Both the position numbers and the translations under genes were made by a program. Shown here piece by piece: positions 46,083 to 64,000 of a stretch of 64,000 bases of DNA. This DNA is from Arenibacter sp. F26102 (GTDB taxonomy: Bacteria > Bacteroidota > Bacteroidia > Flavobacteriales > Flavobacteriaceae). Positions within the stretch are counted from its first letter, which is position 1, and the number at the start of each line of letters is the position of its first letter. The stretch lies in NCBI RefSeq assembly GCF_023015865.1, contig NZ_JALKBC010000001.1, positions 62,001-126,000 of the forward strand, in the 5' to 3' direction. The notes below the pieces were generated by a model. It saw only the letters and a list, made by a program, of their open reading frames with translations. It was not told the DNA's origin and did no database searches.

Positions 46083-47478
46083 ATAAGATAACAAATATAA
46101 TGAATAGTAACCCAACCGGGATTATCAATTGCTTTTCAAAAGTGAAAAACGATTGTTCTATTTCGTCGTAATTCTTCCGTACCACATAAACCGTAAAAAA
46201 GGTTAGGTAGGCAATACTACTTGACAAAGGCAGGGCTTTTATAGAAAAAATTGGAAATAACACATACATTAGTATTATGGTTAAGCTTCCTGTGGCAATT
46301 ATTCTGAAATGCGCAATAATTGCATTGTTCATAAATGTATATAATTGTGTATGCATAGCGGTGTATCTTTCTATAAATAGAAACAAGGCCATTAAAGAAA
46401 AAACGGAATTATCTACAAGATGCACTTTAGATCCAATTAGATCTAAGATTATATTTCCAAAAAACAAAAGGATAATCAGACCTAAAATATTGACCACATA
46501 TGAAAAACCCATTGAAAAACGAACTTTTTTAATCATAAGAGCAATTTTGCCTTGTCCCCTTAATTTTGCAAATTCAGGAATTTTAGAATAAAAAGGTGCT
46601 CTTGAAACCTCCTTTAATTGTCCAAATATCCTGTCGGTCAATAAATAGGCATTGGCTATATCAACTGGCACCAAATTGGCGATAAGAAGATTAAGGCCCT
46701 GCTGTGTTCCAGTTCCTGCAAAACCGGCTATAGATGATCTCCAGGACAGGTTAAAAACTGTTTTATCAATAGATGACGTAGTATGTATTTTAGGACTGTC
46801 TTTTTTGATGATAACTCTTTTTGCTAAAAAATAGTAGTTGAAGAAATTTATTATAATCCAGATATTCAAAACCAACATAAAGCTCAATAAGGTAGGATTG
46901 ATCAACATTACAACTACAAGTGATAATGCAGATAGTCCCTTTAATAGAACCTCCCACCTTTTGACCAAAGCCACTTTATTTAAGCCGATTAAAATCGAAA
47001 TGTATAAGTTGCTATATAAAAAAAATGCGGAGCCTATCACCACTGCTAAACAAGCATACCAGAAGTCCATTTGATCGACAATAGAACTCCTTAAACTAAA
47101 ATAGGTTAGTATAGAGATGAATAGAAGGGAAAATAAAAAGATATATCTGTAATACAACTTTGATCTTTGGAAAATAGTGGAAATCAATTCGGAATTAGGG
47201 GCACTATTGTTTTCGGTTACTGATGAAAATTCGTTTAAATTTTTCACTCCGGCATTGGCATAGGAAAATAATCTTGATAAGTTCTCCTTTAAACCAAAAT
47301 CAAATATATTTTTGAATTGGATAATAGTTGCCAAAACCAAATATATTTTGGTCTCAATAGTAGAAAATTTAACCAATATCATAGGTAAAACAACAATGGT
47401 ATTGGTGGATATAACGACTAAACTGGCCCAAGTAGTCAATGTAGGTGAGTTCCATAATCGATTAAGAACTTTGATCAT
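46054..47478 (-). CDS. wzx: Oligosaccharide repeat-unit flippase (Wzx-like)
   Basis: 474 residues with about 12-14 membrane helices, in the MATE/MVF (polysaccharide synthase) superfamily. The first helices, SLVVISTNTIVVLPMILVKF and YLVLATIIQFKNIFDFGLKE, resemble Wzx proteins. It would move the finished lipid-linked repeat unit to the outer leaflet of the inner membrane, for polymerisation by one of the Wzy-like proteins downstream. It starts directly after the stop of the synthase fusion (no gap). Confidence 0.85.
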   Translation of the reverse strand: MIKVLNRLWNSPTLTTWASLVVISTNTIVVLPMILVKFSTIETKIYLVLATIIQFKNIFDFGLKENLSRLFSYANAGVKNLNEFSSVTENNSAPNSELISTIFQRSKLYYRYIFLFSLLFISILTYFSLRSSIVDQMDFWYACLAVVIGSAFFLYSNLYISILIGLNKVALVKRWEVLLKGLSALSLVVVMLINPTLLSFMLVLNIWIIINFFNYYFLAKRVIIKKDSPKIHTTSSIDKTVFNLSWRSSIAGFAGTGTQQGLNLLIANLVPVDIANAYLLTDRIFGQLKEVSRAPFYSKIPEFAKLRGQGKIALMIKKVRFSMGFSYVVNILGLIILLFFGNIILDLIGSKVHLVDNSVFSLMALFLFIERYTAMHTQLYTFMNNAIIAHFRIIATGSLTIILMYVLFPIFSIKALPLSSSIAYLTFFTVYVVRKNYDEIEQSFFTFEKQLIIPVGLLFIIFVILYEILIPHTQ

Positions 47479-49044
47479 TTAATTATGCAACTTGTTAACC
47501 TTGTATTTGTGATGTTCTTTATTATGAATTTTTTTTGAAGATTCTCCTTTTATTACAACAGCGTTTTTTAGATCTTTAATAAAAGTTGAAAATTCATCGT
47601 TAGAAATATCTAAGGCTACCCCATCAAAATGGACCCATTCCAAATTCCCTAATTTAACATGTTTTTCTATCATTAATGCCCCTGCACCAATGGCAATTTG
47701 ACTCGCTAAGGATCCTACGTCATGACTTGAATATCCAGGAACAATATTATTGTATGTTCCTCTTATTTGAGAATAGTGGTTCACAACACCTATGTTACAA
47801 GAATCTGGAGGAGCAGGATAGGAAGATGTGCATTGTAAAAGATACAATCTATCTTTTTTCTTAAAGGTATTCAATACAAATTCTTCATATTCGGAATCGG
47901 TGAAACCAGTAGAGATAACAACATCTCCCTTAAAGGAATCAGCCACATAACTAAGATAGTTACGATGATTGGATATTGTACTTGGTAGTTTGATCAATGG
48001 GGTGTCATATTGTAACATATATTCGTAAGAATTCTTATCTAGAACAGAGGTAAACCAAAATATTTGATTTTTATTACACTCGTCTATCAATACTTTGAAT
48101 AGATGGTCGTTTAGCTCCACATTTATTCGGTAATCTCTCAGGGTATTACCAAATGGTGACTTGTAAAAACTTTGTAATTCACTCTTGGTATAGAAGGTGT
48201 CTACATCTCTTTTTTGAACTTTAATAGCATCTGCCCCATGTTGCTTGCATAGTTTAATCATTTTTCTTAACCTATGTTCATCACCTATATGATTATTTGT
48301 TAATTCAGCTACAATAATCGGAATATTGTCATTTATTTTTTCAATAAGACTCAGATAAAGTTCAGAATTAGATTTTGTTGTCTTATTAACAATACTGTTT
48401 TTATTATTAAAATCTTCAACAGATAAATCACTAAAGGATTTAGTTCCGACATGAATTATATCTATATCTTTTAAATAATAATCTGAATGATATTTTATTA
48501 CTGTAAATATTTGCTCCTGTGTTTGAAGCAATATTGAAGAAAATTCGGAATTATAATTAGAAAAGTCTTTTATGGTCTTTTCCATTGAAAAATTAAAATC
48601 GAAGCCTAAAAAATACACCTCATATTTTTTATTTTGAATCTCGGCTATTATTCTTGCTAGCTTAATTGCGCCTAAAAATAAAAAATCGGAAAGACTAAAT
48701 TCTTTATTGATTAAATCGATCGTAGCATTTTGCACTTGTTCGAACGAGACTGGCACATAAGGAACAGAAATAGAATTGCTTTCCAATACTGAATCTGATA
48801 TATATACTTTGGATTTAAAACCGTTTCTTTTAACACTTTCAATGGCCCAGTTAGAATGTAAAAGGGAAAAATGCCCCGGTAGGATTATCTCTGAATCGTT
48901 TAGGTTAATTATTAAACCGTCTGTCATAATGCTTTTGTCAACATTATTCATGCTTGGACCCTTCCCTATGATGTAGATCTTATTTGTATCGAAATCTATA
49001 TTTTTTAAGGCCTTCCTAATTAACTTTTTAATGGACTCGCTCAT
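47479..49044 (-). CDS. Fusion: GT42-like/Maf-like domain + NeuB-type nonulosonate synthase without SAF domain
   Basis: 521 residues in two parts. Residues about 241-505 are a NeuB-type TIM barrel (IVAELTNNHIGDE, GADAIKVQKRD, VISTGFTD, LLQCTSSYPAPPDSCN, GYSSHDVG, IEKHVKL), which condenses PEP with an amino- or hydroxy-hexose to make a nine-carbon acid. The usual C-terminal SAF (antifreeze-like) domain is missing. The first 240 residues are a Rossmann-like domain with IYIIGKGPSMNNVD near 23-36 and a His-Ser pair at 186-187. This pattern resembles GT42 sialyltransferases (GNGPS start, catalytic His near 188) and the DUF115/Maf flagellin glycosylation family. Its role is unknown; transfer of the product is one possibility. 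Downstream of neuA-like and phosphatase genes, directly upstream of wzx. Confidence 0.8.
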   Translation of the reverse strand: MSESIKKLIRKALKNIDFDTNKIYIIGKGPSMNNVDKSIMTDGLIINLNDSEIILPGHFSLLHSNWAIESVKRNGFKSKVYISDSVLESNSISVPYVPVSFEQVQNATIDLINKEFSLSDFLFLGAIKLARIIAEIQNKKYEVYFLGFDFNFSMEKTIKDFSNYNSEFSSILLQTQEQIFTVIKYHSDYYLKDIDIIHVGTKSFSDLSVEDFNNKNSIVNKTTKSNSELYLSLIEKINDNIPIIVAELTNNHIGDEHRLRKMIKLCKQHGADAIKVQKRDVDTFYTKSELQSFYKSPFGNTLRDYRINVELNDHLFKVLIDECNKNQIFWFTSVLDKNSYEYMLQYDTPLIKLPSTISNHRNYLSYVADSFKGDVVISTGFTDSEYEEFVLNTFKKKDRLYLLQCTSSYPAPPDSCNIGVVNHYSQIRGTYNNIVPGYSSHDVGSLASQIAIGAGALMIEKHVKLGNLEWVHFDGVALDISNDEFSTFIKDLKNAVVIKGESSKKIHNKEHHKYKVNKLHN

Positions 49045-49074
49045 TTAATCAAGTTTATCTAAATTGTTGTATCC

Positions 49075-49773
49075 CTAATTTCTAGTTATTTTGAATGTAT
49101 ATTTATCATTTGGACTTAGCAATTCCCCGTTGTATTTTTTATTGTTTACAACGACGTTTAATCCATTTTCCAATGCAAGATTCAATCCTGGTATGATATC
49201 CCATATGTAGGCTCCTTTAGGGTTTTCAAATGAATTAAAAGATCCATTTACAACATTTAGCATATTATAAACGCAACAACCTATGATTCTGTATTCAAAG
49301 CCTGGTTTTAATTTTAAAATATCTTCCTTTGTTAAACTGGATGAAATTCCACATATCCTTGATTGAATAGTTTCTATCTTATCACCTGTCTTTAAATATT
49401 TTCTAAGCTCAGGAAGCGCTAACATGGACTCTATGTGTTGGCCATTTTTATAATAACATATGGCCATTCCCCATTCCATTAACCCGGACACAAAGTTTTC
49501 TGTCCCATCAATAGGGTCTAGGATCAAAACCTCATCTTTCTTAATATTCTCAACATTATCAATAGGACTTTCCTCAGATACTAACCAGATTTTCGGGTAT
49601 TTTTTTTTAAGAAAACCCTTTATTAAACTTTCGCATAATAAATCACCTTCAGAAACGTAACTTCCATCGGCCTTTAAAGTTTTTTTACTTCTTAGCTCTA
49701 TAATGAGATTTAAATTAATTTCAATTAATTCTTTTATTTCAGTACAAATACTGATTGATAAGGGATTTTTCAT
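49075..49773 (-). CDS. Inositol-monophosphatase-family sugar phosphatase
   Basis: 232 residues, slightly short for the family. The IMPase metal-binding motifs are visible: WLVSEES (about 63-69), LILDPIDGTENFV (about 82-94) and WDIIPGLNLALENG near the C-terminus. It overlaps the end of the neuA-like gene by 35 bp, and the NeuB fusion follows 30 bp later. The position between a nonulosonate synthase and a CMP-transferase suggests it removes phosphate from a nonulosonate 9-phosphate, as in the KDN/Neu5Ac-9-P route. A housekeeping PAP or inositol phosphatase role is less likely in this place, but not excluded. Confidence 0.8.
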   Translation of the reverse strand: MKNPLSISICTEIKELIEINLNLIIELRSKKTLKADGSYVSEGDLLCESLIKGFLKKKYPKIWLVSEESPIDNVENIKKDEVLILDPIDGTENFVSGLMEWGMAICYYKNGQHIESMLALPELRKYLKTGDKIETIQSRICGISSSLTKEDILKLKPGFEYRIIGCCVYNMLNVVNGSFNSFENPKGAYIWDIIPGLNLALENGLNVVVNNKKYNGELLSPNDKYTFKITRN

Positions 49774-50467
49774 ATTTTACTAATAATTCAACAATTTTAA
49801 AATCAATTTCGTCATCGATATCAAGACCACAAATTTTGTCTATTTCATATCCAAATACCTTATTTCCCAAAAAAGTATTGGAAAAATCTTTTGTGTTGGA
49901 TCTAATGATATCAGTACTGTAAACTTTAAATTTTGACTCGACATCTTGTCGTCTAATCATAGATTTTCCGGAATCTTCAAAATTCGGAATGAGTAATTTA
50001 TCAATATTCAATGAATAAAGCCTACTTTCTGCCTCACAAACTGTTCTTGCACTTGATAGTGTTTGGTCTTTTTCTAAAACCTCTAAACAGTTTAATATTG
50101 AAACTTTATCCCTAAATACGAAAGTAGGACGCAACCAAATAATATAATCCGGTTGACTTATTTTCATCTTCTCAAAGTTTGCATAAAGATCTTCTAAAAT
50201 ATCACCTTCCATGGCAGAATCCGAGGCGGCTTTTCGACTGCGTAGAAATGGAACCTGTGCTCCATAAAACTCTGCAATTTTGGCATAATCTGGAGAATCT
50301 GTGGAACAAATAATTCTATCCGCATTAATTGCTTTTGCGAAAGCAATGGCATACGATAGAAGTGGTTTCCCATCAATTGATCTGATATTCTTGTCTATAA
50401 CCCCTTTGGACCCAGAACGAGCCGGAATTATTGCATATATTAATTTGTCTTTTATAATTTTTCCCAT
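49739..50467 (-). CDS. CMP-nonulosonate (acylneuraminate) cytidylyltransferase, second copy
   Basis: 242 residues. The nucleotide-binding motif is YAIIPARSGSKGVIDKNI and CSTDSPDYAKIAEFYGAQVPFLR follows; the family covers NeuA, LegF and PseF. It activates a nine-carbon acid with CTP. It is distinct from the PseF encoded at 57606-58316, so this cluster can activate two different acids. The phosphatase gene overlaps its 3' end by 35 bp. Which acid it uses is unknown. AT-rich like its neighbours. Confidence 0.88.
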   Translation of the reverse strand: MGKIIKDKLIYAIIPARSGSKGVIDKNIRSIDGKPLLSYAIAFAKAINADRIICSTDSPDYAKIAEFYGAQVPFLRSRKAASDSAMEGDILEDLYANFEKMKISQPDYIIWLRPTFVFRDKVSILNCLEVLEKDQTLSSARTVCEAESRLYSLNIDKLLIPNFEDSGKSMIRRQDVESKFKVYSTDIIRSNTKDFSNTFLGNKVFGYEIDKICGLDIDDEIDFKIVELLVKYEKSLINQYLY

Positions 50468-50508: not shown

Positions 50509-52203
50509 TTAGGCTTTATACAAAAATACTTTCCAGAACGAGGTCTTATTTGTAAATATTTTTTCTAATTTCAAATGTTTTTTTTCTGCATTTAAAATCT
50601 CGACGGCTGAAAATATGTATTCCCCATTCATTTTGCTAAATTGGCCTATGTCAATATCCAAATTTTTTATTACTTTTTTTGAATTTTTATCAAAGAAATA
50701 ATTTCTATTCAGCTCTACCGGCAAAACATAACATCTACAACCCCAAGTGTCATAGTATCTTTCTATTACCGGGTTTTTTTGAATTTCATTTCCAATTATT
50801 TTTCTAAAATCTCTTTTATATTCAAGTGAATATGAATTCTCATAACTATCTAGGGTATAAAACCCATTGTACTGTGCTATGCTTGGAGACATGCCTACAC
50901 TTACTACTCTATAAGTGCTTTTATCCTTAGCAATAAATTCCCCTATTTCTTTAAATAAATCTGTTGCGAAAAAAGAAGCGTAATTTAAATCAGCCTTATC
51001 TTCTTTCTTATCGTTTATTTTTAAGACATTTTCCCAGTTTGGCAAATAAGTATTTGTTTTTGGATCTCCTTTTAAAACACCTTTGATATGGAAAAAAAAT
51101 AGAACTGGTACTATTAGCCTTAAAAATTTATTTGATATAATTCCTGACAAAGATACTATAAATAAAGTAGTCCATAAGAAGGGCAATAAAAATGAAAACC
51201 TTGTAGCATCAAATGCTTTTGCAAGTTCTAAACCCCAGGAAACGGTAATTTGCTTTAAGTAAATAGCCCCAAAAATCATAGCGAAAACCATGGCAATGGA
51301 AGCTACCCCGATTTGAATCTTGAGTGGTATTTTCCTATGAATTATAATATAAAGGCAAAATGCGGTAATGACCAAAATTGGATCAAAAGTTCCCGAATGG
51401 TATGGAGTCGTATATTTATTATACACTTGATCTCTAATTTCATTCAGCGATAGTATGGGGACAACAAAGTCTGTTCTATTACTTATATAAAAGCTGTCTA
51501 ATACCTGTATGACCAAATTGTATTCTACCAACAAAGAGAATCCAAACAATAAAAGAAAACCTTTGATATAATCTGTAGGAATGGTTTTGGTTTTAAAGAC
51601 ATAAACTAACCCAAAAATTAGCAAAAAAACTAAAATAAATAGCGTGGAGTATACAAAGAAACTATACAGTGAGAATAAACATATTAGAGTATAACTAAGT
51701 TTTTTGTTTCTCCCATAAAGTAAGTTTAAAAATGCATACACCAATAATGGTTGGCCGGCCACAGTTAATCCTTGTATGGAATAAAATTGGATAAAGGCAA
51801 ACAAAATAGATCCCAAAATAATTAGATACCTATTCCAGTTGCTATCTTCCATTAAATAATTCTTTAGCAATAAGTACATTCCAGTGTATGCAATAATTCT
51901 CACGAAAAATTCATTGACCATATAGGCTACAAAAGGCGGGAACATAAAAAAAAACACGTTTATTATACTAAGTGAGGAGGGGTAATAGGCTCTAGGCAAA
52001 CCATTCATTACTTGTTCCATTGGAAAACTTGGCGAAAAAGGGATTCCGTTTCTGACTAAAATAACTCTTTGTATAAATGATATTTCTAAGTTGTCATGGA
52101 TAAAAATTTTGGATTCTTCCCCCAAAATCAGAAAGGGAAAAAAATAAAAACAGACAATTACAATACCGGATAGATACCAAAATATTTCTTTTTTATCCAA
52201 CAT
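50509..52203 (-). CDS. Polytopic membrane protein (DUF6044-like), putative GT-C type transferase
   Basis: 564 residues: about 11-12 hydrophobic helices in the first 390 residues, then a soluble C-terminal domain of about 170 residues (YRVVSVGMSPSIAQYNGF, NPVIERYYDTWGCRCYVLP). An acidic loop after the first helix (IFIHDNLEISF) fits the GT-C pattern, where a luminal acidic motif is catalytic. It resembles DUF6044, a family of unknown function found in polysaccharide loci. Transfer of a lipid-linked sugar to the growing glycan is the best guess, but this is inference. Confidence 0.6.
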   Translation of the reverse strand: MLDKKEIFWYLSGIVIVCFYFFPFLILGEESKIFIHDNLEISFIQRVILVRNGIPFSPSFPMEQVMNGLPRAYYPSSLSIINVFFFMFPPFVAYMVNEFFVRIIAYTGMYLLLKNYLMEDSNWNRYLIILGSILFAFIQFYSIQGLTVAGQPLLVYAFLNLLYGRNKKLSYTLICLFSLYSFFVYSTLFILVFLLIFGLVYVFKTKTIPTDYIKGFLLLFGFSLLVEYNLVIQVLDSFYISNRTDFVVPILSLNEIRDQVYNKYTTPYHSGTFDPILVITAFCLYIIIHRKIPLKIQIGVASIAMVFAMIFGAIYLKQITVSWGLELAKAFDATRFSFLLPFLWTTLFIVSLSGIISNKFLRLIVPVLFFFHIKGVLKGDPKTNTYLPNWENVLKINDKKEDKADLNYASFFATDLFKEIGEFIAKDKSTYRVVSVGMSPSIAQYNGFYTLDSYENSYSLEYKRDFRKIIGNEIQKNPVIERYYDTWGCRCYVLPVELNRNYFFDKNSKKVIKNLDIDIGQFSKMNGEYIFSAVEILNAEKKHLKLEKIFTNKTSFWKVFLYKA

Positions 52204-53778: not shown

Positions 53779-54807
53779 TTATTCAGATAATAGGTGATGC
53801 TGTGACAAAGGGAATCCCATTTCAAGATTTTGGTTAAATCTTTTCCCCAAGACCTCGTTAAAATATTTGGGATGCATTCCGTAACCTGGTCGTATGGATC
53901 GTACATTTTCTTTGGTTAGAACATCCCCTGCTTTAACATCTTTAACTATAAAAAGAGAACGACAAAACTCTCTGCTCTTCTCTTTCTTTGCTGTCATTTC
54001 ATAGTCAACTTTTCCCAACAACTTTTCTGTTAACCTTACGGCATCGACCATGTGCTTAAATTCTTTTTCGTCCAAGGAGAAATGAGCATCAGCACCGCCG
54101 ATTGATTTGTCTAGAATAAAATGTTTTTCAATAACTTGTGCCCCTAAAGCAACCGCGACCATGGGCGCTTCAATACCCATTGTATGATCGGACAAACCTG
54201 ATTTTACCCCAAAACGTTTCGCTATATCAGGAATGGTCGATAAATTAGCGTCTTCTGGAGCAGCTGGATATGCGGAAGTACATTTTAAAATGGTAATATC
54301 ATGATTCCCTGCTTTTTTACAGGTTTCAATCGCCAATTCTATATCTTCAATAGTAGCAATTCCAGTTGATATGATCATCGGCTTTTGTTTTGATGCCATG
54401 TATTCAATCAATGGGATATCTGTTATTTCAAAAGATGCTACCTTATAAATAGGGGTATTTAAATCCTCCAAAAAATCTACTGCAGTGAAATCAAATGGAG
54501 ACGAAAAACAAACTAAGCCTTCTTCTTTACCGGTTTCAAACAATTCTTTATGCCACTCCCAGGGTAAAGAAGCCTCTTTATATAAATCGTATAAATACTG
54601 ACCATCCCAATGCGTCCCTTGTGTGATTTTAAAATGATCTTGCTTACCATCCATGGTTATGGTATCTGCGGTATAGGTTTGTAACTTTATTGCATCCGCA
54701 CCCGCCCTCTTTGCAGCTCTAATAGTTTCTTTTGCAATGTCTATATTGCCACCGTGATTGGCCGATAGTTCGGCAATTATAAACGTCTTATTTATATTAG
54801 AGCACAT
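53779..54807 (-). CDS. pseI: Pseudaminic acid synthase
   Basis: 342 residues. The NeuB-type barrel covers about residues 10-270: IIAELSANHGGNIDIAKET, GADAIKLQTYTADTITM, then TLKG-like core, ILKCTSAYPAAPEDANL, GLSDHTMGIEAP and IEKHFILDKSIGGADAHFSL. The C-terminal SAF domain follows (SLFIVKDVKAGD, SIRPGYGMHPKYFNEVLG). The GYGMHPKY stretch and the preserved ANHGG match PseI more than NeuB or LegI. It condenses 2,4-diacylamido-2,4,6-trideoxy-L-altrose with PEP. It overlaps pseH by 11 bp and is the last gene of the compact pse operon. Start ATG at 54807. Confidence 0.93.
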   Translation of the reverse strand: MCSNINKTFIIAELSANHGGNIDIAKETIRAAKRAGADAIKLQTYTADTITMDGKQDHFKITQGTHWDGQYLYDLYKEASLPWEWHKELFETGKEEGLVCFSSPFDFTAVDFLEDLNTPIYKVASFEITDIPLIEYMASKQKPMIISTGIATIEDIELAIETCKKAGNHDITILKCTSAYPAAPEDANLSTIPDIAKRFGVKSGLSDHTMGIEAPMVAVALGAQVIEKHFILDKSIGGADAHFSLDEKEFKHMVDAVRLTEKLLGKVDYEMTAKKEKSREFCRSLFIVKDVKAGDVLTKENVRSIRPGYGMHPKYFNEVLGKRFNQNLEMGFPLSQHHLLSE

Positions 54808-55390
54808 ATTCTATAATTTTTCTAGTTTTTTCTTTACTAATATTGAACCATGTTTCTGCAGAAAACTCTAGGGATAAATATTCGTTTTTAATGATATCTT
54901 GTGAAAAATTCTCGTTTAAAAGAACGGCTCCAAATAATTTATTAAGACGTATGGCATTTATATTGTCTTTTTTAACTATAGCTTTGATTTTACTACATTT
55001 TATTATCTCAAAGGCGATATAATGCATAAAATAATTGACAACTGCCCCAAAACCACTTCCAATCATTTCAGGCGCAATAAAATTGCCCCCAACAAAAGAA
55101 GCATCCTTTTCATTATATTGTATTAATGAAATTGACCCTAAAATCTCCCCTTTTTTTTTTAATGCCCAGTATCCAATATTTTTTTTGGACAAAGTTGAGA
55201 CAAAATGAAAGTGATTTTCTTCAGAAATCAAATCTGAATTAACCATTCTTCTCCGTATTGAAAAATCATTTCTGATTGCCAATATCTTTAAAGAATCCTT
55301 CTTGCTTAGATTGGAATAGTTTATTAAGTGGTATCCTTCTATTTCTAAAGCACAATCCCTTCTTAATGCATGTAAATCTATTGGATACAT
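54797..55390 (-). CDS. pseH: PseH-like GNAT N-acyltransferase
   Basis: 197 residues. A GNAT fold is indicated by the central KNIGYWALKKKGEILGSISL (beta4) and MIGSGFGAVVNYFMHYIAFE (the acyl-CoA/pantetheine loop and helix), then NINAIRLNKLFGAVL. In the pse pathway PseH acylates the 4-amino group of UDP-4-amino-4,6-dideoxy-N-acetyl-L-altrosamine. Here the gene lies directly after a carrier protein gene (stop and start adjacent), so the acyl donor may be an acyl-ACP instead of acetyl-CoA (inference). It overlaps pseI by 11 bp. Confidence 0.82.
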   Translation of the reverse strand: MYPIDLHALRRDCALEIEGYHLINYSNLSKKDSLKILAIRNDFSIRRRMVNSDLISEENHFHFVSTLSKKNIGYWALKKKGEILGSISLIQYNEKDASFVGGNFIAPEMIGSGFGAVVNYFMHYIAFEIIKCSKIKAIVKKDNINAIRLNKLFGAVLLNENFSQDIIKNEYLSLEFSAETWFNISKEKTRKIIEYVL

Positions 55391-55612
55391 TTATTCTAAA
55401 TTATCTTCACCAACAAAATTAATTAGATCTTTTATTTGTTTTATTTCTTTAATTTTTTCTTGGGAAATACTTTTAGAAAAATTTTCATCAAAAAAAGCAA
55501 TTAATAAAAGACTAGCCATAGAGTCTATCTCTATATATGTTTCCGTATTAATATTTGTTTCTTCTAAAAGTAAAATCTCTTTAATTTCTTCTAAAAAATG
55601 TTTCTTTTCCAT
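55391..55612 (-). CDS. Acyl carrier protein of the pse operon
   Basis: 73 residues, small and acidic, as expected for an ACP. The phosphopantetheine Ser is in EIDSMASLLL (Ser31, the DSL-type motif as DSM), followed by helix II and III. It is not the housekeeping acpP: the sequence is atypical (FLEEIKEILLLEETNINTET) and it is embedded between a KASIII-like gene (8 bp gap) and pseH (no gap). It probably carries the acyl group made by the KASIII enzyme. Confidence 0.85.
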   Translation of the reverse strand: MEKKHFLEEIKEILLLEETNINTETYIEIDSMASLLLIAFFDENFSKSISQEKIKEIKQIKDLINFVGEDNLE

Positions 55613-55620
55613 ATTTACCT

Positions 55621-56619
55621 TTATATTTCAATAATAGTTGCTCCCCACGATAATCCAACTCCAAATCCAGCGAGTAAAACTTTGTTTCCTTTTTTTATCT
55701 TCTCATTTTCTAGGGCTTGATGTAGAGCTATTGGTATAGTAGATGATACTGTATTTCCTGTTTTTTCTAAATCAATGTGAAATTTTTCTAAAGGAATTCC
55801 TATTTTTCTGCGCAAATAATTCAGCATAAATTTATTAGCCTGATGAAAAACAAAATAATCTACATCCTCTTTTTTTAATTTATTGGCCTTTAAAGTGTCA
55901 GATATTAATTTAGGGATATTGTTAATGGTAAAATTAAAAATTTCTGGACCATTCATATAAATGCAATTATCTGTAAATTGATTACCGTCGCCATAATTTT
56001 TAATTTCTGCCTTTTCATCGAATTCGTTTTTACCTCCACCATTTTTAATGATCAATTTATCGAATCCGGATCCATCCGACCCCAAATTGAACTGCCCTAA
56101 TTTGTCTTTTTCGTCTTTTGTTATTATTGTTGCTGTTGCCGCATCTCCAAATATAGATCTGTTGCCTTTGTCTTTTTTATGGATATATTTAGTGTATGTA
56201 TCTGCAGTTACAAAAAGAATTTTAGAAGCAATGCTAGCCTCTAGGAAGCCTTTACACATTGCTAATCCATAAACATAACCCGAACATCCGAGGTTGAAAT
56301 CCAAAGCACCTATAGAGCTAGGAAGCCCCAGACGATCTTGTAGAATACATGCGCCTGTTGGAAGAATATAGTCTGGAGTTTGCGTACAAAGTATTATAAA
56401 ATCAATATCATTGGTCCCTGATCTTTCAATTACATTTAAAGAGGCTTTATAGGCCAAATCCAAACTTGTTTCTTTTTCTCCTGCAATATGGCGTGATTTG
56501 ATTCCGACTTTATCTTCTATCTTGTTTATATCAAAATCTGGAAAAATTTCTTTTAATGCTGCGGAATCCAATTTCCCTTCTGGAAGATAATATGCTATGT
56601 TTTCGATTTTAGCCCCCAT
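55621..56619 (-). CDS. KASIII-like 3-oxoacyl-ACP synthase of the pse operon
   Basis: 332 residues, the usual length of FabH enzymes. The complete catalytic triad is visible: Cys112 in NLGCSGYVYGLA, His259 in VFHQANKFMLNYLR and Asn289 in TGNTVSSTIPIAL. FabH-type enzymes condense an acyl-CoA with malonyl-ACP, so this one could make acetoacetyl-ACP or a related acyl-ACP. It starts 1 bp after the pseG stop and is followed 8 bp later by its ACP. It is one of only two genes of this operon that do not belong to the classical pse pathway. No ketoreductase gene is in the window. Confidence 0.9.
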   Translation of the reverse strand: MGAKIENIAYYLPEGKLDSAALKEIFPDFDINKIEDKVGIKSRHIAGEKETSLDLAYKASLNVIERSGTNDIDFIILCTQTPDYILPTGACILQDRLGLPSSIGALDFNLGCSGYVYGLAMCKGFLEASIASKILFVTADTYTKYIHKKDKGNRSIFGDAATATIITKDEKDKLGQFNLGSDGSGFDKLIIKNGGGKNEFDEKAEIKNYGDGNQFTDNCIYMNGPEIFNFTINNIPKLISDTLKANKLKKEDVDYFVFHQANKFMLNYLRRKIGIPLEKFHIDLEKTGNTVSSTIPIALHQALENEKIKKGNKVLLAGFGVGLSWGATIIEI

Positions 56620-56620
56620 T

Positions 56621-57628
56621 TTAACTTAATTTATTCATTAATTTTAAAAATCTCCTTTTTTGATTACCATCAATTAACATCCTTTGAGCTTCAATTTGAT
56701 TTTTTATGTCATTTGCTGAAACATTTATTAGATGATTTTTTAGAAAATCAAATTGATATTTATTAAAATCACCTAACCCTTTAAAAACGGCTCTTCTTTC
56801 AAATTCGTAATAAGCCATCCTTTGATTTTCCACATAATAACCCGATACTAGGTACATATTGACCGATATCAATTCAAGCAAAATAGTACTTGTAGGTGCT
56901 ACTGCAAAATTACATGTATCCATTAAGGTATGTAAACTTTTTTCATTTAAATTTTTGAATATCTTAACTTTAGAATTTTTCTTTTCTACTTCGAATATTT
57001 CCGGGTATTTGTATGCACCTCCAACAACAAGGTTAATTTTTTTGATTTCAGGAATATTCAATAATTCAAGCATAATTTTATATGTAAAATTATTTTTATC
57101 AGCTCCACCAAAGCAAACAAATACATTACTTAAAGATTTAATATCTCGATTTCCTAAAGATACCTTTAGAAAAGACGGTCTTAATATGGCATAGTCAGTT
57201 CCTAAAGCAAACTTAGTGTATTTTTCTTTTTTGTACTGAACGTCCGTTATATGGGGCGAATGGTTTACAACCAAATCTGCATACATATGTTCATTTGCCA
57301 AGTCGTCTACGTATATTAAAATATAACCCAACTCTTTAATTTTTTTTTGATAGGCACTCACAAATTGATATCCGTCAGCGATAAGAATATACTCCTCAGG
57401 TGGAAAATTTTCAAAAACCCAAATCGGTTCTCTATTTATGTTTACATGATTTGGAATTGTTTTTACCTTGTAATTAAGAGGGATGACATCTAAAAGAGTA
57501 TCTTTTTTAGTTAAAAAAACAAAATCATATTCATCTTTATACATTTCAACCAATGCAAATAATCGATACAGATGCCCTAATCCAATTTCAGAATTTCCAT
57601 CTGCCCTAAAGATTATTTTCTTTTTCAT
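56621..57628 (-). CDS. pseG: UDP-2,4-diacylamido-trideoxy-L-altrose hydrolase
   Basis: 335 residues with a GT-B-like fold. The N-terminus IIFRADGNSEIGLGHLYRL includes the conserved GxGHxxR motif whose His (His19) is catalytic in Campylobacter PseG. The C-terminal domain has CFGGADKNNFTYKIMLELL and NFAVAPTSTILLELISVNMY. It removes UDP from the bis-acylated L-altrose intermediate. It overlaps pseF by 23 bp and lies 1 bp before the KASIII-like gene. Cytoplasmic. Confidence 0.9.
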   Translation of the reverse strand: MKKKIIFRADGNSEIGLGHLYRLFALVEMYKDEYDFVFLTKKDTLLDVIPLNYKVKTIPNHVNINREPIWVFENFPPEEYILIADGYQFVSAYQKKIKELGYILIYVDDLANEHMYADLVVNHSPHITDVQYKKEKYTKFALGTDYAILRPSFLKVSLGNRDIKSLSNVFVCFGGADKNNFTYKIMLELLNIPEIKKINLVVGGAYKYPEIFEVEKKNSKVKIFKNLNEKSLHTLMDTCNFAVAPTSTILLELISVNMYLVSGYYVENQRMAYYEFERRAVFKGLGDFNKYQFDFLKNHLINVSANDIKNQIEAQRMLIDGNQKRRFLKLMNKLS

Positions 57629-58316
57629 TGAGCAACATTTTATATTTAATCTCAGCTAACTTCCAGTCGGTTTCTGTATCTATATCTTGTGCATGAAGTT
57701 GAGATATGGTAACAGCGCCGGAATTATTTGTAAGTATTTTTTTTTCTTCTAAAAATGCTTTTGATTTTATCCAGTAAAATTGCCCTGAATCATGAAATCT
57801 AGGTTCTAAATCTTGCGATCGAGTATTAAGATGTTCCTTCCAAATCATTTCAACTTTATCATTCTTGATTTGTAGACAACGTTGAATAGGAAAAGAAAAT
57901 TCCAAAACCGGAAAAACGGTATCAAAATTACGTTCAGTATCTATTAGTAAATTATATGCTTCGATAATTTTTTCTGACGTAACAAAAGGTGCCGTTGGTA
58001 AAATACAGCAAACATTGTCGAAGTTTAAACCTTGTATTGAATAGGTTTTTAAAACCTCTCCTATCACATCTGCTAATACTGCAAAATCGTTTGAATTTTC
58101 TGAACTGCGAATAAAAGGTATTTTCGCACCATATTGAGAGGCGATTTCAGCAATTTCCTCATCGTCGGTTGATACCATAACCTCCTCAAAAAGATTACTT
58201 TTTAAAGCGGCCTCGATAGAGTAAGCAATTATTGGTTTTCCCAAGAAAGGTTTAATGTTTTTTTGTGGGATACGCTTACTACCTCCTCGCGCTGGTATAA
58301 TTGCTAGATTAGCCAT
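57606..58316 (-). CDS. pseF: CMP-pseudaminic acid synthetase
   Basis: 236 residues. The cytidylyltransferase motif LAIIPARGGSKRIPQKNIK is at the N-terminus, followed by VSTDDEEIAEIASQYGAKIPF and ILPTAPFVTSEKI. The PseF subtype is supported by the position between pseC (8-bp overlap) and pseG (23-bp overlap). It uses CTP to give CMP-pseudaminic acid, the donor for a transferase. Confidence 0.92.
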   Translation of the reverse strand: MANLAIIPARGGSKRIPQKNIKPFLGKPIIAYSIEAALKSNLFEEVMVSTDDEEIAEIASQYGAKIPFIRSSENSNDFAVLADVIGEVLKTYSIQGLNFDNVCCILPTAPFVTSEKIIEAYNLLIDTERNFDTVFPVLEFSFPIQRCLQIKNDKVEMIWKEHLNTRSQDLEPRFHDSGQFYWIKSKAFLEEKKILTNNSGAVTISQLHAQDIDTETDWKLAEIKYKMLLNEKENNL

Positions 58317-59454
58317 TAATGAATGCTAGTGTTTTCTTTATTGCATATTCTTGTTCCTCATCTGTCAAGCTTGGATACATTGGTAAACTAATACATTTAG
58401 AGTAATAATTTTCGGAGTTGTCTAAAACGGCACTACCATAACCGATTTCCTTATAATATGGTAAAGAGTATACTGGAATATAATGTATCTGAGCAAAAAT
58501 ATTTTGGGTTCTTAGGAAGTCGTATAATCCTTTTCTATCCCCAACTTCTATAACGAATAAATGATGGGCATTGTAAGTTCCTTTGGGTAAATGTTGATAT
58601 TTAATTGTTCCGTCAAAAGCACTTTTATAGGCTTCAGCAATCTCGTTTCTTCTTTTGACCCCAGCATCATTTTTAGAGAGCTGGCTAATACCTAAAGCGG
58701 ATTGAATATCAGTTAATCTATAATTGAACCCCAGTTCTTGCATTTCGTAATACCAACCACCATGGTCCTCCTGCATGTTTTCCTTGGTAATTCCATGAGT
58801 TCGAAGCAATGACACCTTCTTATACAGCACTTCAGAGTTAGTGGTTACCATACCACCTTCCCCGCATGCTATATGTTTTACGGGGTGGAAAGAAAACACT
58901 GCTAAATCCGCGTAGTTTCCGTTACCACACTTTTGCTGCTTACCTTTTAAATCTGTAAAATACCCCCCTGGAGCGTGCGCAGCATCTTCAATGAGCCATA
59001 GGTCATGTTCGTCGGCTAAATTGCGAAATTCTTCAAGATTCACAGGTAAGCCTGCAAAATCAACCGGAATAATTCCTTTAAAGAAGCCTTTTGGTTTACT
59101 CTCAATAAGATTTTTGGTGCTTTCCAAAGATATTAGATAGGTGTCGGGGTCAATGTCTGCAAACCAAACTTCACCCCCGGCGTACCTTACGCAATTGGCA
59201 GAAGCTGCAAATGTTATTGGTGTTGTGATTACACGTTCTCCTGGTTTTATACCCAAGGCCAAAATAGCAAGATGTAACCCAGACGTGGCATTATTGACGG
59301 CCACAGCATATTTTGCCCCAACATATTCGGCGAACTTATCTTCAAACTCCTTTACCTTTGGGCCCTGCGTTAAAAAATCTGCAGTAAGCGTTTTTATTAC
59401 AGCATCAATATCATCCTGCTCAATGTTCTGTTTTCCGTAGGGTATAGATTGCAT
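58309..59454 (-). CDS. pseC: UDP-4-keto-6-deoxy-N-acetyl-L-altrosamine 4-aminotransferase
   Basis: 381 residues. It is a PLP-dependent DegT/DnrJ/EryC1-family aminotransferase with SFHPVKHIACGEGGMV (the Lys after the VKH-type motif binds PLP) and IEDAAHAPGGYF. The start MQSIPYGKQNIEQDDIDAV is typical of PseC. It converts the 4-keto sugar made by PseB to the 4-amino form, using glutamate. Its ATG overlaps the pseB stop by one base (TAATG), so the two are translationally coupled; pseF overlaps its end by 8 bp. Confidence 0.94.
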   Translation of the reverse strand: MQSIPYGKQNIEQDDIDAVIKTLTADFLTQGPKVKEFEDKFAEYVGAKYAVAVNNATSGLHLAILALGIKPGERVITTPITFAASANCVRYAGGEVWFADIDPDTYLISLESTKNLIESKPKGFFKGIIPVDFAGLPVNLEEFRNLADEHDLWLIEDAAHAPGGYFTDLKGKQQKCGNGNYADLAVFSFHPVKHIACGEGGMVTTNSEVLYKKVSLLRTHGITKENMQEDHGGWYYEMQELGFNYRLTDIQSALGISQLSKNDAGVKRRNEIAEAYKSAFDGTIKYQHLPKGTYNAHHLFVIEVGDRKGLYDFLRTQNIFAQIHYIPVYSLPYYKEIGYGSAVLDNSENYYSKCISLPMYPSLTDEEQEYAIKKTLAFING

Positions 59455-60467
59455 TATATAACGAAATTAGTATCTACATGTTCTTTTATTAAGCATCTTA
59501 AAGTTTCAACCGTTTCCCATTCTTCATTTTCACCCGAATTATAACTAAAATTTGATGGTACGGGTTTTGCATTAAATTCTTTTATAAATTCTTCCAATTT
59601 CCATTTGTGTGTGGAAGGTAATATTGTATAATATTTTCCAAGATCATAGGTGTAAAAAGAATCTGAAGGAGTAATCATTTCTTCATGAATTTTTTCTCCT
59701 GGCCTGATTCCTACTATTGGCTTTTTGCATTCAGGAGCAATTGCTTCGGCAACGTCCAAAATTCTGTAGGACGGTATTTTGGGAACATAAAGCTCTCCAC
59801 CCCAAGCATATTTCAAAGCATGCATTACCATGTCAACTCCTCCTTGAAGCGAAATGTTGAACCTGGTCATATTGGGATCTGTAATAGGCAAGGAACCCTC
59901 TTTTTTCTTATTAATGAAAAAAGGTATTACAGAACCATTGGATCCCATAACGTTGCCATAACGTACCACGGAAAAACGTATTGGACTGTCCCCTTTAATA
60001 TTGTTGGCTGCGACAAATAACTTATCTGAGGTCAATTTGGTGGCGCCATAAAGATTTATTGGAGCACAAGCCTTATCAGTTGATAACGCTACTACTCTTT
60101 CAACGTTCGTGGAAAAGCAAGCATCCACTACATTTTGGGCCCCGCCTATATTCGTTTTTATGCATTCCTCTGGATTATATTCAGCTAGATGAACGTGTTT
60201 CATAGCTGCGGCATGGATGACGTAATCTACACCTTTAAAGGCCCTAATTAATCTATCCCTATCCCTTACGTCACCAATAAAGAATCTTATTTGGGGAAAT
60301 TGGTCAATGGGAAATTCTTGAGCCATTTGAAATTGCTTTTGTTCGTCTCGCGAAAAGATGATGACTCTTCTAATTTCAGAGTGATTAGATAATATATGGC
60401 TTGTTAAAGCCTTTCCCAAGGAACCAGTTCCTCCAGTTATCAAAAGTGATTTACCTGTAAAATCCAT
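59454..60467 (-). CDS. pseB: UDP-N-acetylglucosamine 4,6-dehydratase (inverting)
   Basis: 337 residues. The SDR cofactor motif ITGGTGSLGKAL is near residues 10-21; the active-site region has STDKACAPINLYGATKLTSD (YxxxK and the Asp-Lys pair typical of the inverting PseB/FlaA1 subfamily). VIHAAAMKHVHLAEYNPEEC supports PseB. It performs 4,6-dehydration with 5-epimerisation, the first committed step to pseudaminic acid. It is the first gene of the pse block and lies 15 bp after the rfbD stop. Confidence 0.95.
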   Translation of the reverse strand: MDFTGKSLLITGGTGSLGKALTSHILSNHSEIRRVIIFSRDEQKQFQMAQEFPIDQFPQIRFFIGDVRDRDRLIRAFKGVDYVIHAAAMKHVHLAEYNPEECIKTNIGGAQNVVDACFSTNVERVVALSTDKACAPINLYGATKLTSDKLFVAANNIKGDSPIRFSVVRYGNVMGSNGSVIPFFINKKKEGSLPITDPNMTRFNISLQGGVDMVMHALKYAWGGELYVPKIPSYRILDVAEAIAPECKKPIVGIRPGEKIHEEMITPSDSFYTYDLGKYYTILPSTHKWKLEEFIKEFNAKPVPSNFSYNSGENEEWETVETLRCLIKEHVDTNFVI

Positions 60468-60482
60468 TATACACTTTGTTGT

Positions 60483-61280
60483 TTATTGTTTTAAAACGCT
60501 TATTTTAGGTCTCTTGGCAAAACTACGATAATTATTCTCCTTCACAATAGTTGTAGTATTTTTCAGTCCGTTGTCCTGCAATATGTTTTTGGCAAAACCA
60601 AACCAACTCATGGCTTTTCCGTCTGTAAAATGATAAATGCCATATTGTGGATTTGTATTTGAAATTAGTTCCAAAATGTATTTGGCCAAGTTTACTGCAT
60701 TAGTCGGGCAACCAACTTCACTATCTATTATGCGTAATTCCTCGCCCTTTTTAGCCATTTTCAAAATGGTCTTGTAAAAGTTGTGACCATGTGTTTTATG
60801 GTACAACCATGAGGTACGGACAATATAATACTTATCCAATATTTCCTGGATATACTTTTCTCCCTCCCATTTGGACATGCCATATGCGTTAATTGGGTTT
60901 GGTTGGTCATCAATCGTATATGGTGATCCTTTTTCTCCATCGAAAACATAATCGGTAGATATGTGGATCAAGGTAACATTATAATTTTCGCAGGCCAGTG
61001 CCAGATGCTTAACGGCTTCAGCGTTCACTTTAAAGGCGATTTGTGGGCTTTTCTCTGCTTTTTCTACATTGGTGTAGGCAGCGCAATTAATACAGTAGTC
61101 AAAATAGCCTATTTCAATGGTTTTCCACACTTTTTCAGTGTCTGTTATGTCCAGAGTTTGGGAATTGGCAAATACAAATTTCAACAGTGGATATTCCTTA
61201 GCTATGTCCTGAAGACTAAGACCTAGTTGCCCAGAAGACCCGGTAACCAAAATTCGTGTTATAGTTGAATCTCTTTCCAT
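60483..61280 (-). CDS. rfbD: dTDP-4-dehydrorhamnose reductase
   Basis: 265 residues from ATG 61280 (MERDSTITRILVTGSSGQLG); an in-frame start at 61337 would add 19 residues inside rfbC. The SDR motif GSSGQLG and YxxxK (YGMSKWEGE) are present, with HISTDYVFDGEKGSPY and RTSWLYHKTHGHNFYKTIL, all RfbD-typical. It performs the last step of dTDP-L-rhamnose synthesis. It overlaps rfbC by 22 bp; pseB follows 15 bp downstream, linking the rhamnose and pse modules in one transcript. Confidence 0.93.
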   Translation of the reverse strand: MERDSTITRILVTGSSGQLGLSLQDIAKEYPLLKFVFANSQTLDITDTEKVWKTIEIGYFDYCINCAAYTNVEKAEKSPQIAFKVNAEAVKHLALACENYNVTLIHISTDYVFDGEKGSPYTIDDQPNPINAYGMSKWEGEKYIQEILDKYYIVRTSWLYHKTHGHNFYKTILKMAKKGEELRIIDSEVGCPTNAVNLAKYILELISNTNPQYGIYHFTDGKAMSWFGFAKNILQDNGLKNTTTIVKENNYRSFAKRPKISVLKQ

Positions 61281-61804
61281 AGGGGTAATTCCAAATCTTT
61301 TGGCGATAATATTAGATTCATGTCGTCTTTTTCCCAATCAATATCTAAATCGGGGTCATTGTATTTAATACCGCTTTCAGCCTCTTTGTGGTAATGGGAA
61401 TCGCATTTATAGCTAAAAATAACATCTTCGGTCAAGGCCAAGAATCCATGCGCCATACCTTTAGGTATAAAAATAGATTTCTTGTTTTTCGAGGATAATT
61501 TTAATTTAAAATGCTGGCCGAATGTGCTGCTTTCTTTGCGCATATCTACTACTACATCCAAAACGTCACCTTTCAACACCTGCACCAATTTACTTTGGGC
61601 GTTTTTTCCGGTTTGAAAATGCAAGCCGCGTAATACTCCTTTTTTGGAAACTGAAATATTATCTTGAACAAAATTTATGGACTCGCCAATGGCTTGCTCT
61701 AAATTGGTTTTATGATAGGATTCAAAAAATAACCCTCTCTCATCCACATGAATCTTGGGCTCTAAAATAAAACAGCCTTCTAGCCTAGTCTTTGTAATTT
61801 TCAA
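61259..61804 (-). CDS. rfbC: dTDP-4-dehydrorhamnose 3,5-epimerase
   Basis: 181 residues, a cupin of standard length. The catalytic His is in VLRGLHFQTGKNAQSKLV, and GDVLDVVVDMRKESSTFG, IPKGMAHGFLALTEDV and SGIKYNDPDLDIDW follow, all RfbC signatures. It epimerises C3 and C5 of the dTDP-4-keto-sugar. It overlaps rfbD by 22 bp; a 177-bp gap with imperfect direct repeats separates it from rfbA. Confidence 0.95.
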   Translation of the reverse strand: MKITKTRLEGCFILEPKIHVDERGLFFESYHKTNLEQAIGESINFVQDNISVSKKGVLRGLHFQTGKNAQSKLVQVLKGDVLDVVVDMRKESSTFGQHFKLKLSSKNKKSIFIPKGMAHGFLALTEDVIFSYKCDSHYHKEAESGIKYNDPDLDIDWEKDDMNLILSPKDLELPLWKEIQL

Positions 61805-61981: not shown

Positions 61982-62869
61982 TCACTTCATCACGACCCCA
62001 CCAAATTGGTCTATAAGTAGCCCTAATAAATATTTGCCATAACCACTTTTTAATAGGGGTTTTGCTAATTCCCGCAGTTGATCTTTTGAAATATACCCCA
62101 TGGTATAAGCTACTTCTTCGATAGATCCTATTTTTAGCCCCTGTCTGTCCTCTATGACCTCAACGAATTGGGAGGCCTGCATAAGGGAGGCGAAGGTCCC
62201 TGTATCCAGCCAAGCCGTTCCCCGATCTAAAATGCTCACTTGTAACTTGCCCTGTTCCAAATAGGCCTTATTGATATCGGTTATTTCCAGTTCCCCTCTT
62301 TTGCTGGGTTTTATTTTTTTGGCGATAGCAATTACATCGTTATCGTAAAAATATATGCCAGGTACAGCATAATTGGATTTTGGATTGGTCGGTTTTTCCT
62401 CGATACTTATGGCTTTTCCTTCCTCATTAAATACCACCACTCCATAACGTTCAGGGTCCTGAACATGGTAGCCGTAAATAATACCCCCATCCGGGTCGTT
62501 ATTGGCCTGCAATAATGTTGCTAGTCCGGAACCGTAGAAAATATTATCACCTAAAATCAAAGCAACTTTATCGGTTCCAATAAAATCTTCCCCAATGATA
62601 AAAGCCTCTGCCAATCCATTTGGATTCTCTTGGGAAGCAAATTTAAAAATACAGCCCAATTGGGAACCGTCACCCAAAAGGGTTTTAAATTGGACCTGGT
62701 CCTGAGGAGTGGTTATTATCAAAATTTCCTGAATACCCGCCGACATTAAGGTTGCCAGCGGGTAGTAGATCATTGGCTTATCATAGATGGGCATCAATTG
62801 TTTGCTCATCGCCAAAGTGATGGGGTATAATCTTGTTCCGGATCCTCCTGCCAATATGATGCCTTTCAT
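61982..62869 (-). CDS. rfbA: Glucose-1-phosphate thymidylyltransferase
   Basis: 295 residues. The nucleotidyltransferase motif is [20 protein letters not shown], followed by [26 protein letters not shown], and [20 protein letters not shown], all RfbA-typical. It makes dTDP-glucose from glucose-1-phosphate and dTTP, the first step of dTDP-rhamnose synthesis; the product often inhibits the enzyme. The broken DUF559 gene lies between it and rfbB. Confidence 0.96.
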
Positions 62870-63358: not shown

Positions 63359-64000
63359 TTAGGGGTACTGCCTCTCATAATATTCCTTATACTTGCCCGA
63401 GGTTACATTGTTTAACCACTGCTCATTGGTCGAATACCAATCAATTGTTTTTTCCAGTCCTTTCTCAAAAGTAACGGATGGTTCCCAACCCAATTCCCTT
63501 TTAATTTTTGAAGCATCTATTGCATATCGTAAGTCGTGACCTGGCCTGTCCTTGACAAAAGTGATGAGTCTTTCACTTTCCCCAGGGGATCTTCCCAATT
63601 TTTCATCCATTTTTCTGCAAAGCAATTTCACCAAATCTAAATTCTTCCATTCATTAAAACCGCCGATATTATAGGTTTCGGCATTTTCTCCGTTGTGGAA
63701 TAAAAGATCTATTGCTCTGGCATGGTCTTCCACATACAACCAATCCCTTGTGTAATTCCCGTCGCCATAGACAGGCAAAGGTTTCTTGTTGATGATATTG
63801 TTCAAAAATAATGGAATCAATTTCTCCGGAAATTGATAGGGGCCATAATTATTGGAGCAATTACTAATTAAGTAGGGCAGGCCATAGGTTTCCCCATAAG
63901 CCCTAACAAAATGATCCGAGCTTGCTTTTGAGGCAGAATAGGGGGAGTTTGGATCGTAGGCCGTGGTTTCGGTAAACAAACCGGTTTTTCCTAGGGAACC
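63359..64000 (-). CDS. rfbB: dTDP-glucose 4,6-dehydratase, 5' end outside the window
   Basis: The C-terminal 213 codons are visible and open to the right edge. The catalytic YxxxK (YSASKASSD) is present, followed by [44 protein letters not shown] and [20 protein letters not shown], all RfbB-specific. It makes dTDP-4-keto-6-deoxyglucose, the second step to dTDP-L-rhamnose. The N-terminal NAD-binding part lies beyond the window. It is the first visible gene of the polysaccharide cluster. Confidence 0.96.

Follow-up and report, generated by a model that had tools for sequence, protein, structure and literature searches.

A KASIII-type ketosynthase paired with a dedicated acyl carrier protein (ACP) is known as a cassette for sugar N-acylation from the viosamine island of Pseudomonas syringae. 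There vioS (KASIII) and acp, together with vioR (reductase) and vioB, lie beside sugar aminotransferase and acyltransferase genes, the viosamine product is N-(3-hydroxybutyryl), and a vioR deletion strain no longer has the modified sugar (PMC3927599). A similar set has been predicted in the O-antigen locus of Flavobacterium psychrophilum, where the ketosynthases WfpC and WfpE, the ACP WfpD, the reductase WfpF and the PglD homolog WfpG would synthesize a 3,5-dihydroxyhexanoyl group and transfer it from ACP to a UDP-4-amino sugar (PMC6519341). Here we describe a KASIII-ACP pair set within a pseudaminic acid (Pse) operon of Arenibacter sp. F26102. The operon lies in a stretch of 64,000 nucleotides (contig NZ_JALKBC010000001.1, positions 62,001 to 126,000), hereafter the window. 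We consider it likely that the pair delivers an acyl-ACP to the PseH-like acyltransferase encoded next to it, giving a pseudaminic acid with a non-acetyl N-acyl group. The locus joins a known cassette to a known pathway in a new combination, with a GNAT-family enzyme as the probable transferase. The viosamine island, unlike the Arenibacter operon, has a ketoreductase and the VioB acyltransferase and acts on dTDP-viosamine rather than on a nonulosonate precursor (PMC3927599), while the wfp set has two ketosynthases, a ketoreductase and a PglD-type acyltransferase and serves a bacillosamine-type sugar (PMC6519341).

Pseudaminic acid with a non-acetyl 7-N group is itself known. Pse5Ac7(R)Hb is described for the psaABCGHF module of Acinetobacter baumannii and the psb locus of Shigella boydii type 7, where the locus's own acyltransferase and hydrolase determine the group (PMC9676051, PMC6586298, PMC3628348). 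The first-pass annotation had suggested an N-acyl form other than di-N-acetyl pseudaminic acid; such a form was thus already on record as N-(3-hydroxybutyryl) pseudaminic acid (PMC9676051, PMC6586298). Genes of fatty-acid type between pse genes also have a precedent in the Group II flagellar glycosylation islands of Aeromonas, where an ACP gene lies just downstream of pseH. Those islands differ from the present operon in carrying a 3-oxoacyl-ACP reductase, an AMP-dependent synthetase, LuxE and LuxC, not a KASIII, and their authors suggest a liposugar component (PMC7874193). The characterized PseH enzymes of Helicobacter pylori (4ri1) and Campylobacter jejuni (4xpk) belong to the GNAT family and by alignment share their substrate-binding residues with the window PseH; they differ in using acetyl-CoA and in having Leu or Phe, against Gly in the window, at the acetyl contact (PMC4363471). 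Our literature search on pseudaminic and nonulosonic acid acylation, which covered mainly titles and the openings of abstracts and left subscription journals largely outside, found no report of a KASIII-ACP-PseH operon. One further likeness is purely chemical and concerns Flexibacter maritimus, now Tenacibaculum. Its O-antigen nonulosonate also bears a short hydroxyacyl amide, (S)-3-hydroxybutyramido, although the sugar is an 8-amino sugar and the position of the amide is given two ways (PMC3210612).

Organization of the operon

Eight tightly packed genes occupy positions 53779-60467 on the minus strand in the order pseB-pseC-pseF-pseG-KASIII-ACP-pseH-pseI, and all eight open reading frames (ORFs) were recovered at the coordinates that the first-pass annotation had given for a tight, partly overlapping operon. 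Overlaps of 11 bases (PseI/PseH), 23 bases (PseG/PseF), 8 bases (PseF/PseC) and 1 base (PseC/PseB) alternate with gaps of 8 bases (ACP-KASIII) and 1 base (KASIII-PseG), and the pseH gene directly abuts the 3′ end of the ACP gene. Five Pse enzymes pass the equivalog cut-offs of their NCBIfam families: PseB, the inverting UDP-GlcNAc 4,6-dehydratase (59454-60467; TIGR03589, 498.4 bits against 407.75); PseC, the aminotransferase leading to UDP-4-amino-4,6-dideoxy-AltNAc (58309-59454; TIGR03588, 460.6 bits against 423.5); PseF, the CMP-pseudaminic acid synthetase (57606-58316; TIGR03584, 304.6 bits against 205.7); PseG, the UDP-sugar hydrolase (56621-57628; TIGR03590, 166.4 bits against 153.55); and PseI, the pseudaminic acid synthase (53779-54807; TIGR03586, 512.5 bits against 340.25).

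The KASIII (55621-56619) belongs to a glycan-cassette subfamily, passing NF006829 (276.2 bits against 249) and failing TIGR00747 (248.9 against 292.1), and its best match in the PDB is 3gwa (E 1e-90). Its predicted triad Cys112-His259-Asn289 is present and is invariant in a 12-sequence alignment. The ACP (55391-55612; 73 residues) has the phosphopantetheine attachment site Asp30-Ser31-Met32, again as first annotated. It is otherwise divergent, with 20 bits against a cut-off of 84 for NF002147, a best PDB match to 1vku at E 0.0012 and no Pfam match at 0.001, and is assigned from its attachment site, these weak family matches and its position next to the KASIII, as in related cassettes. Chance grouping or an annotation error is ruled out by the confirmed operon and enzyme families, since a single pathway accounts for most of the genes and other glycan loci also have KASIII-ACP pairs. 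The operon, its enzyme families, the active-site residues, the recurrence of the cassette and the pocket substitution described below are read from sequence, and from them we infer the use of ACP by PseH, the identity of the acyl group and the final glycan.

The window PseH and its acetyl-contact residue

The PseH of the window (54797-55390) matches a single NCBIfam family, TIGR03585, at 73.9 bits, under the cut-off of 93.1; we therefore file it as PseH-like and not as an acetyl-CoA equivalog. Its two PDB matches are both PseH enzymes and both weak (4xpk, E 0.00015; 4ri1, E 0.001). Residues of the substrate site are kept, with Arg40, Met49, His60, Phe63 and Ser88 aligning with Arg30, Met39, His49, Phe52 and Ser78 of H. 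pylori PseH (roles in PMC4363471; H. pylori numbering follows a 6-residue offset that we derived for chain 4ri1_A). At the position of H. pylori Tyr138, the proposed general acid, the window has Asn150, against Tyr in the C. jejuni fragment; the aligned part of H. pylori PseH stops short of this position, which varies among the other rows.

In H. pylori PseH, Leu91 touches the acetyl moiety (PMC4363471). The window has Gly101 at this position, where the residue is bulky in all 61 other rows of the alignment, two of them duplicates (Ile, Val, Leu, Trp, Tyr, Phe or Met). Having chosen the position from the window, we tested it on new sequences, obtained by searching an alignment of the window PseH and its nearest relative against 395 genomes of the class. 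Matches were found in 36 genomes, including the window's own, and the 35 new loci were annotated; 11 carry a KASIII, and 10 of those 11 also an ACP. One KASIII-linked GNAT (L275) is cut by a contig end and was left out, giving a linked set of ten plus the window. Of these 11 linked GNATs, 10 have Gly, Ala, Ser or Cys at the pocket position, against none of the 85 unlinked rows (Fisher p 9.8e-13, a value that ignores kinship). The unlinked rows include those of a census of PseI loci, with two duplicates due to the overlap of L135 and L144, and the C. jejuni and H. pylori rows, counted as unlinked by assumption. With the window set aside, the new sequences alone give 9/10 linked against 0/25 unlinked. 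Three unlinked GNATs have Thr. Two KASIII-adjacent GNATs from earlier loci were found later and entered by hand, in places where the alignment is shaky: L209 has Ser and L070 has Pro. If Thr and Pro are counted as small, the tally becomes 12/13 linked against 3/85 unlinked. A PseI-like gene is present in five of the 35 new loci, all of them without a KASIII; at the pocket position these five have Trp, Val, Trp, Trp and Ile. TIGR03585 was also the best match, under its cut-off (30.1-86.9 bits), for each of the five linked GNATs that were scanned (L264, L271, L070, L209 and L291).

The nearest relative of the window PseH follows the same pattern. Of 149 family genomes searched at an E limit of 1e-10, the window's own alone had a match, and among 395 genomes of the order one other had a relative, at 36% (genome G554, locus L226). 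L226 holds pse genes together with an SDR gene and one resembling a formyltransferase. The two relatives differ as predicted: KASIII, ACP and Gly in the window, against neither gene and Trp in L226. Searches of viral contigs, plasmids and phages gave no relatives of either protein.

Proposed route and the acyl group

Taken together, these data argue for a route in which the KASIII would join a short acyl-CoA (acetyl-CoA being the most likely) to malonyl carried by the neighbouring ACP, giving a 3-oxoacyl-ACP, that is acetoacetyl-ACP. The acetoacetyl group would then be used unchanged, or a reductase encoded outside the operon would convert it to the 3-hydroxybutyryl form. The enzyme that passes the acyl group to UDP-4-amino-4,6-dideoxy-AltNAc is probably PseH, a GNAT with Gly in place of the bulky residue of acetyl-CoA-using PseH. 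PseG, PseI and PseF would carry the acylated sugar onward to a CMP-sugar for a surface polysaccharide, the product being CMP-pseudaminic acid with a non-acetyl 7-N group (the C4 nitrogen of the UDP-sugar precursor). Handover from ACP to PseH had been proposed in the first-pass annotation. In its favour, KASIII-ACP is a known sugar N-acylation cassette in P. syringae (PMC3927599), as the first-pass annotation had correctly stated for the Pseudomonas viosamine genes, and is predicted as such in F. psychrophilum (PMC6519341); moreover, other loci also combine KASIII and ACP with an adjacent PseH-like GNAT, whose acetyl-contact residue is small in most cases.

Whether the acyl group keeps its 3-oxo function would depend on a ketoreductase. 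Pfam scans covered 40 window proteins, namely 39 of the 58 ORFs of at least 100 residues and the ACP. Three of the 19 unscanned ORFs exceed 200 residues (60483-61337, 61982-62869 and 63359-63979) and are presumably rml genes; the rest are shorter and many are antisense. Neither the operon nor the 40 scanned proteins include a FabG-type ketoreductase, which bears out, within that scope, the earlier remark that the window has none. The operon also lacks a hexapeptide (VioB/PglD) acyltransferase, the GNAT standing in its place. Reduction by a housekeeping FabG, suggested in the first-pass annotation, is not to be assumed, as deletion of vioR in P. syringae led to loss of the modified viosamine (PMC3927599); since this result speaks against housekeeping FabG always filling in, acetoacetyl stays a real option. 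We put 3-hydroxybutyryl at about even odds with all other acyl groups together. A branched or longer acyl group, made by the KASIII from another primer, seems rather improbable: related sugars can bear 3,5-dihydroxyhexanoyl and 3-hydroxy-3-methylbutyryl groups (PMC6519341, PMC3210612), but this operon has one ketosynthase where F. psychrophilum has both wfpC and wfpE.

A broader reading is possible, though we hold it only tentatively: that a branch of PseH-like GNATs uses short 3-oxoacyl- or 3-hydroxyacyl-ACP from a dedicated KASIII-ACP pair and can be recognized by a small residue where acetyl would be contacted; that the module serves several amino-sugar pathways (pseudaminic acid here, a 4-amino-4,6-dideoxygalactose type in locus L264); and that, because no ketoreductase is linked, the present strain makes 7-N-acetoacetyl pseudaminic acid. 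If the proposed route is right, PseH-like GNATs would join the acyltransferases fed by a dedicated ACP, and the N-acyl group of a nonulosonic acid could become predictable from the genes beside pseH and one pocket residue. Such a gene-to-group code would be useful because N-acyl groups on these sugars influence antigen type (PMC6519341, on R-group genes). A unit of KASIII, ACP and GNAT without a ketoreductase may likewise point to N-acetoacetyl sugars.

Counter-evidence and the role of PseH

Several observations weigh against supply of PseH by the KASIII-ACP pair and against the pocket residue as its mark. Neither a KASIII nor an ACP was found in the 19.9 kb stretch of L226; since the nearest PseH relative thus sits in a pse locus lacking both, this lineage of PseH does not always go with the pair. 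The window PseH lies on a long branch of the tree, and the AlphaFold model of the protein alone reached a pLDDT of 35.4 and was not used, so the pocket claim is one of alignment. Among linked GNATs, L270 has Val and L070 the Pro given above, and the PseH of L112, a pse locus with an ACP and no KASIII, has Trp. On the tree, KASIII linkage requires 2 changes and the small residue 4; eleven of the linked GNATs form one group, while the window pairs with L226 and L209 is poorly placed, and the AU test does not reject one common origin for all linked GNATs (p 0.263). The correlation between residue and linkage therefore amounts to about two events, and a sign test over independent pairs cannot reach 0.05. 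PseH of C. jejuni is an acetyl-CoA enzyme with Phe at the pocket position, and the organism has FabH2 (Cj1303), whose gene we take to lie within the flagellar glycosylation region; a neighbouring KASIII therefore need not feed PseH. Finally, the A. baumannii psa module differs from the window in being listed without a KASIII or ACP gene (PMC9676051, PMC6586298). Because 3-hydroxybutyryl pseudaminic acid is assigned to modules so listed, the product here may be a known one, the KASIII-ACP supply route alone being new.

Some of the same evidence would fit a different division of labour, in which the KASIII and ACP do make an acyl group but PseH takes acyl-CoA, or in which PseH simply transfers acetyl and the acyl-ACP is the donor for a separate acyltransferase that modifies a different sugar of this glycan. 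The substrate-site residues of the acetyl-CoA enzymes are kept in the window PseH, L226 has the relative without the pair, and the cluster contains a second ulosonate-type gene set with a NeuB-like protein (47479-49044) and a cytidylyltransferase (49739-50467). We nevertheless regard this as unlikely, as the scan of 40 window proteins found no second acyltransferase, the ACP gene abuts pseH, and the change to Gly101 fits a larger acyl group.

Occurrence of the cassette

A census across 395 genomes of the phylum found PseI in 58 genomes, at 59 places in all, of which two score below the family cut-off; among 18 genomes of the window's genus only the window's own has it. In the window and the stretches around the 58 other places (some ended by contig ends, two overlapping), a KASIII near PseI occurs at 1 of the 59 places, the window itself, a rarity that also counts against the proposed route. 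The first-pass annotation had called for a search for the KASIII-ACP-PseH triplet in other pse loci; general co-occurrence of KASIII-ACP with pse loci is rejected by this result. An ACP was found in the window and in L112 only, small ORFs in L115, L142 and L143 that fit a loose motif not being counted.

Locus L112 (6319-10269) has pse genes, among them a PseH that passes its cut-off, and genes for a VOC-family protein, an FkbH-like protein and an ACP precede PseI there. This is a different system, possibly one that supplies glyceryl-ACP for N-glyceryl pseudaminic acid. The L112 PseH, second in the first round of the profile search, was considered as closest kin of the window PseH and dropped (best BLASTP E 1.4); viral contigs hold no relatives of it. 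Elsewhere in the census, proteins of about 487 residues next to PseI match the GNAT profile at the position called PseG (L087, L090, L108, L111, L121 and other loci) and appear to be PseG-PseH fusions. A fusion of this kind is in print for Aeromonas caviae (PMC7874193).

KASIII relatives at E <= 1e-70 occur in 21 of the 395 phylum genomes, counting that of the window. In the loci of the best 80 of 576 relatives from genome contigs, an ACP lies within 5 kb of the KASIII in 76, a ketoreductase in 64 and a hexapeptide/PglD-type acyltransferase in 59, and a PseI-like gene is present in two. One of these, L146 (3169-13153; a Porphyromonadaceae metagenome-assembled genome, MAG), is a second pse locus with KASIII-ACP, having PseI at 523 bits and PseC- and PseF-like genes, together with a larger acyl module that includes a MaoC dehydratase, a ketoreductase, an ATP-grasp protein and a hexapeptide transferase. 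In the other, L203 (Omnitrophota MAG), a NeuB/PseI-type synthase under both cut-offs stands beside KASIII, ACP and a NeuD-type transferase. Plasmid pBGF3 of Burkholderia glumae carries a KASIII (43%) with flagellin, VioA, ACP, SDR, acetyltransferase and Rieske genes. The KASIII neighbourhoods on Azospirillum and Deinococcus plasmids have no pse genes annotated in their incomplete gene tables, and no PseI-like gene lies beside the 8 KASIII relatives in viral contigs.

The arrangement with a GNAT recurs. Eight loci (L261, L264, L271, L272, L277, L279, L288 and L293) have a row of ACP, KASIII, a gene of about 300-316 codons and a PseH-like GNAT, and one reductase query gave no ketoreductase match in their stretches of at most 19 kb, some ended by contig ends; a further KASIII-linked locus, L291, does have a ketoreductase. 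L264 encodes a WecE-like transaminase over its cut-off (NF008687, 393.1 against 375) and a glycosyltransferase whose best match, the ArnC model, is under cut-off (117.8 against 529), and an ACP-KASIII-GNAT block of this type likely makes an N-acyl 4-amino sugar.

These counts bear on whether the window pair could be a relic or recent insertion, its KASIII and ACP having arrived with a cassette and no longer acting on pseudaminic acid while PseH uses acetyl-CoA. The cassette's presence at 1 of 59 pse places and its want of the ketoreductase and hexapeptide transferase found in most of the best 80 relatives would suit such a history, but the reading frames are intact, the spacing is operon-tight, the triad is kept, and the ketoreductase-less form with a GNAT recurs in the eight loci above, so that we judge it very improbable.

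Surrounding locus

The operon stands in a polysaccharide locus with a Wzx-like protein under its cut-off, two O-antigen ligase-domain proteins and glycosyltransferases. The second ulosonate-type gene set of the cluster spans 43774-50467 on the minus strand. Its NeuB-like protein (47479-49044) has 521 residues with the NeuB domain in the C-terminal half and scores 123.5 bits on TIGR03586, far under the cut-off, and its cytidylyltransferase (49739-50467) is PseF-like at 95.7 bits against 205.7; an IMPase-like protein, a Wzx-like protein and two POLYST-like glycosyltransferases complete the set. Between the two sugar gene sets lies a DUF6044 protein (50509-52203, minus strand; 472.8 bits), and the Pfam scan also found type IX secretion domains in the window.

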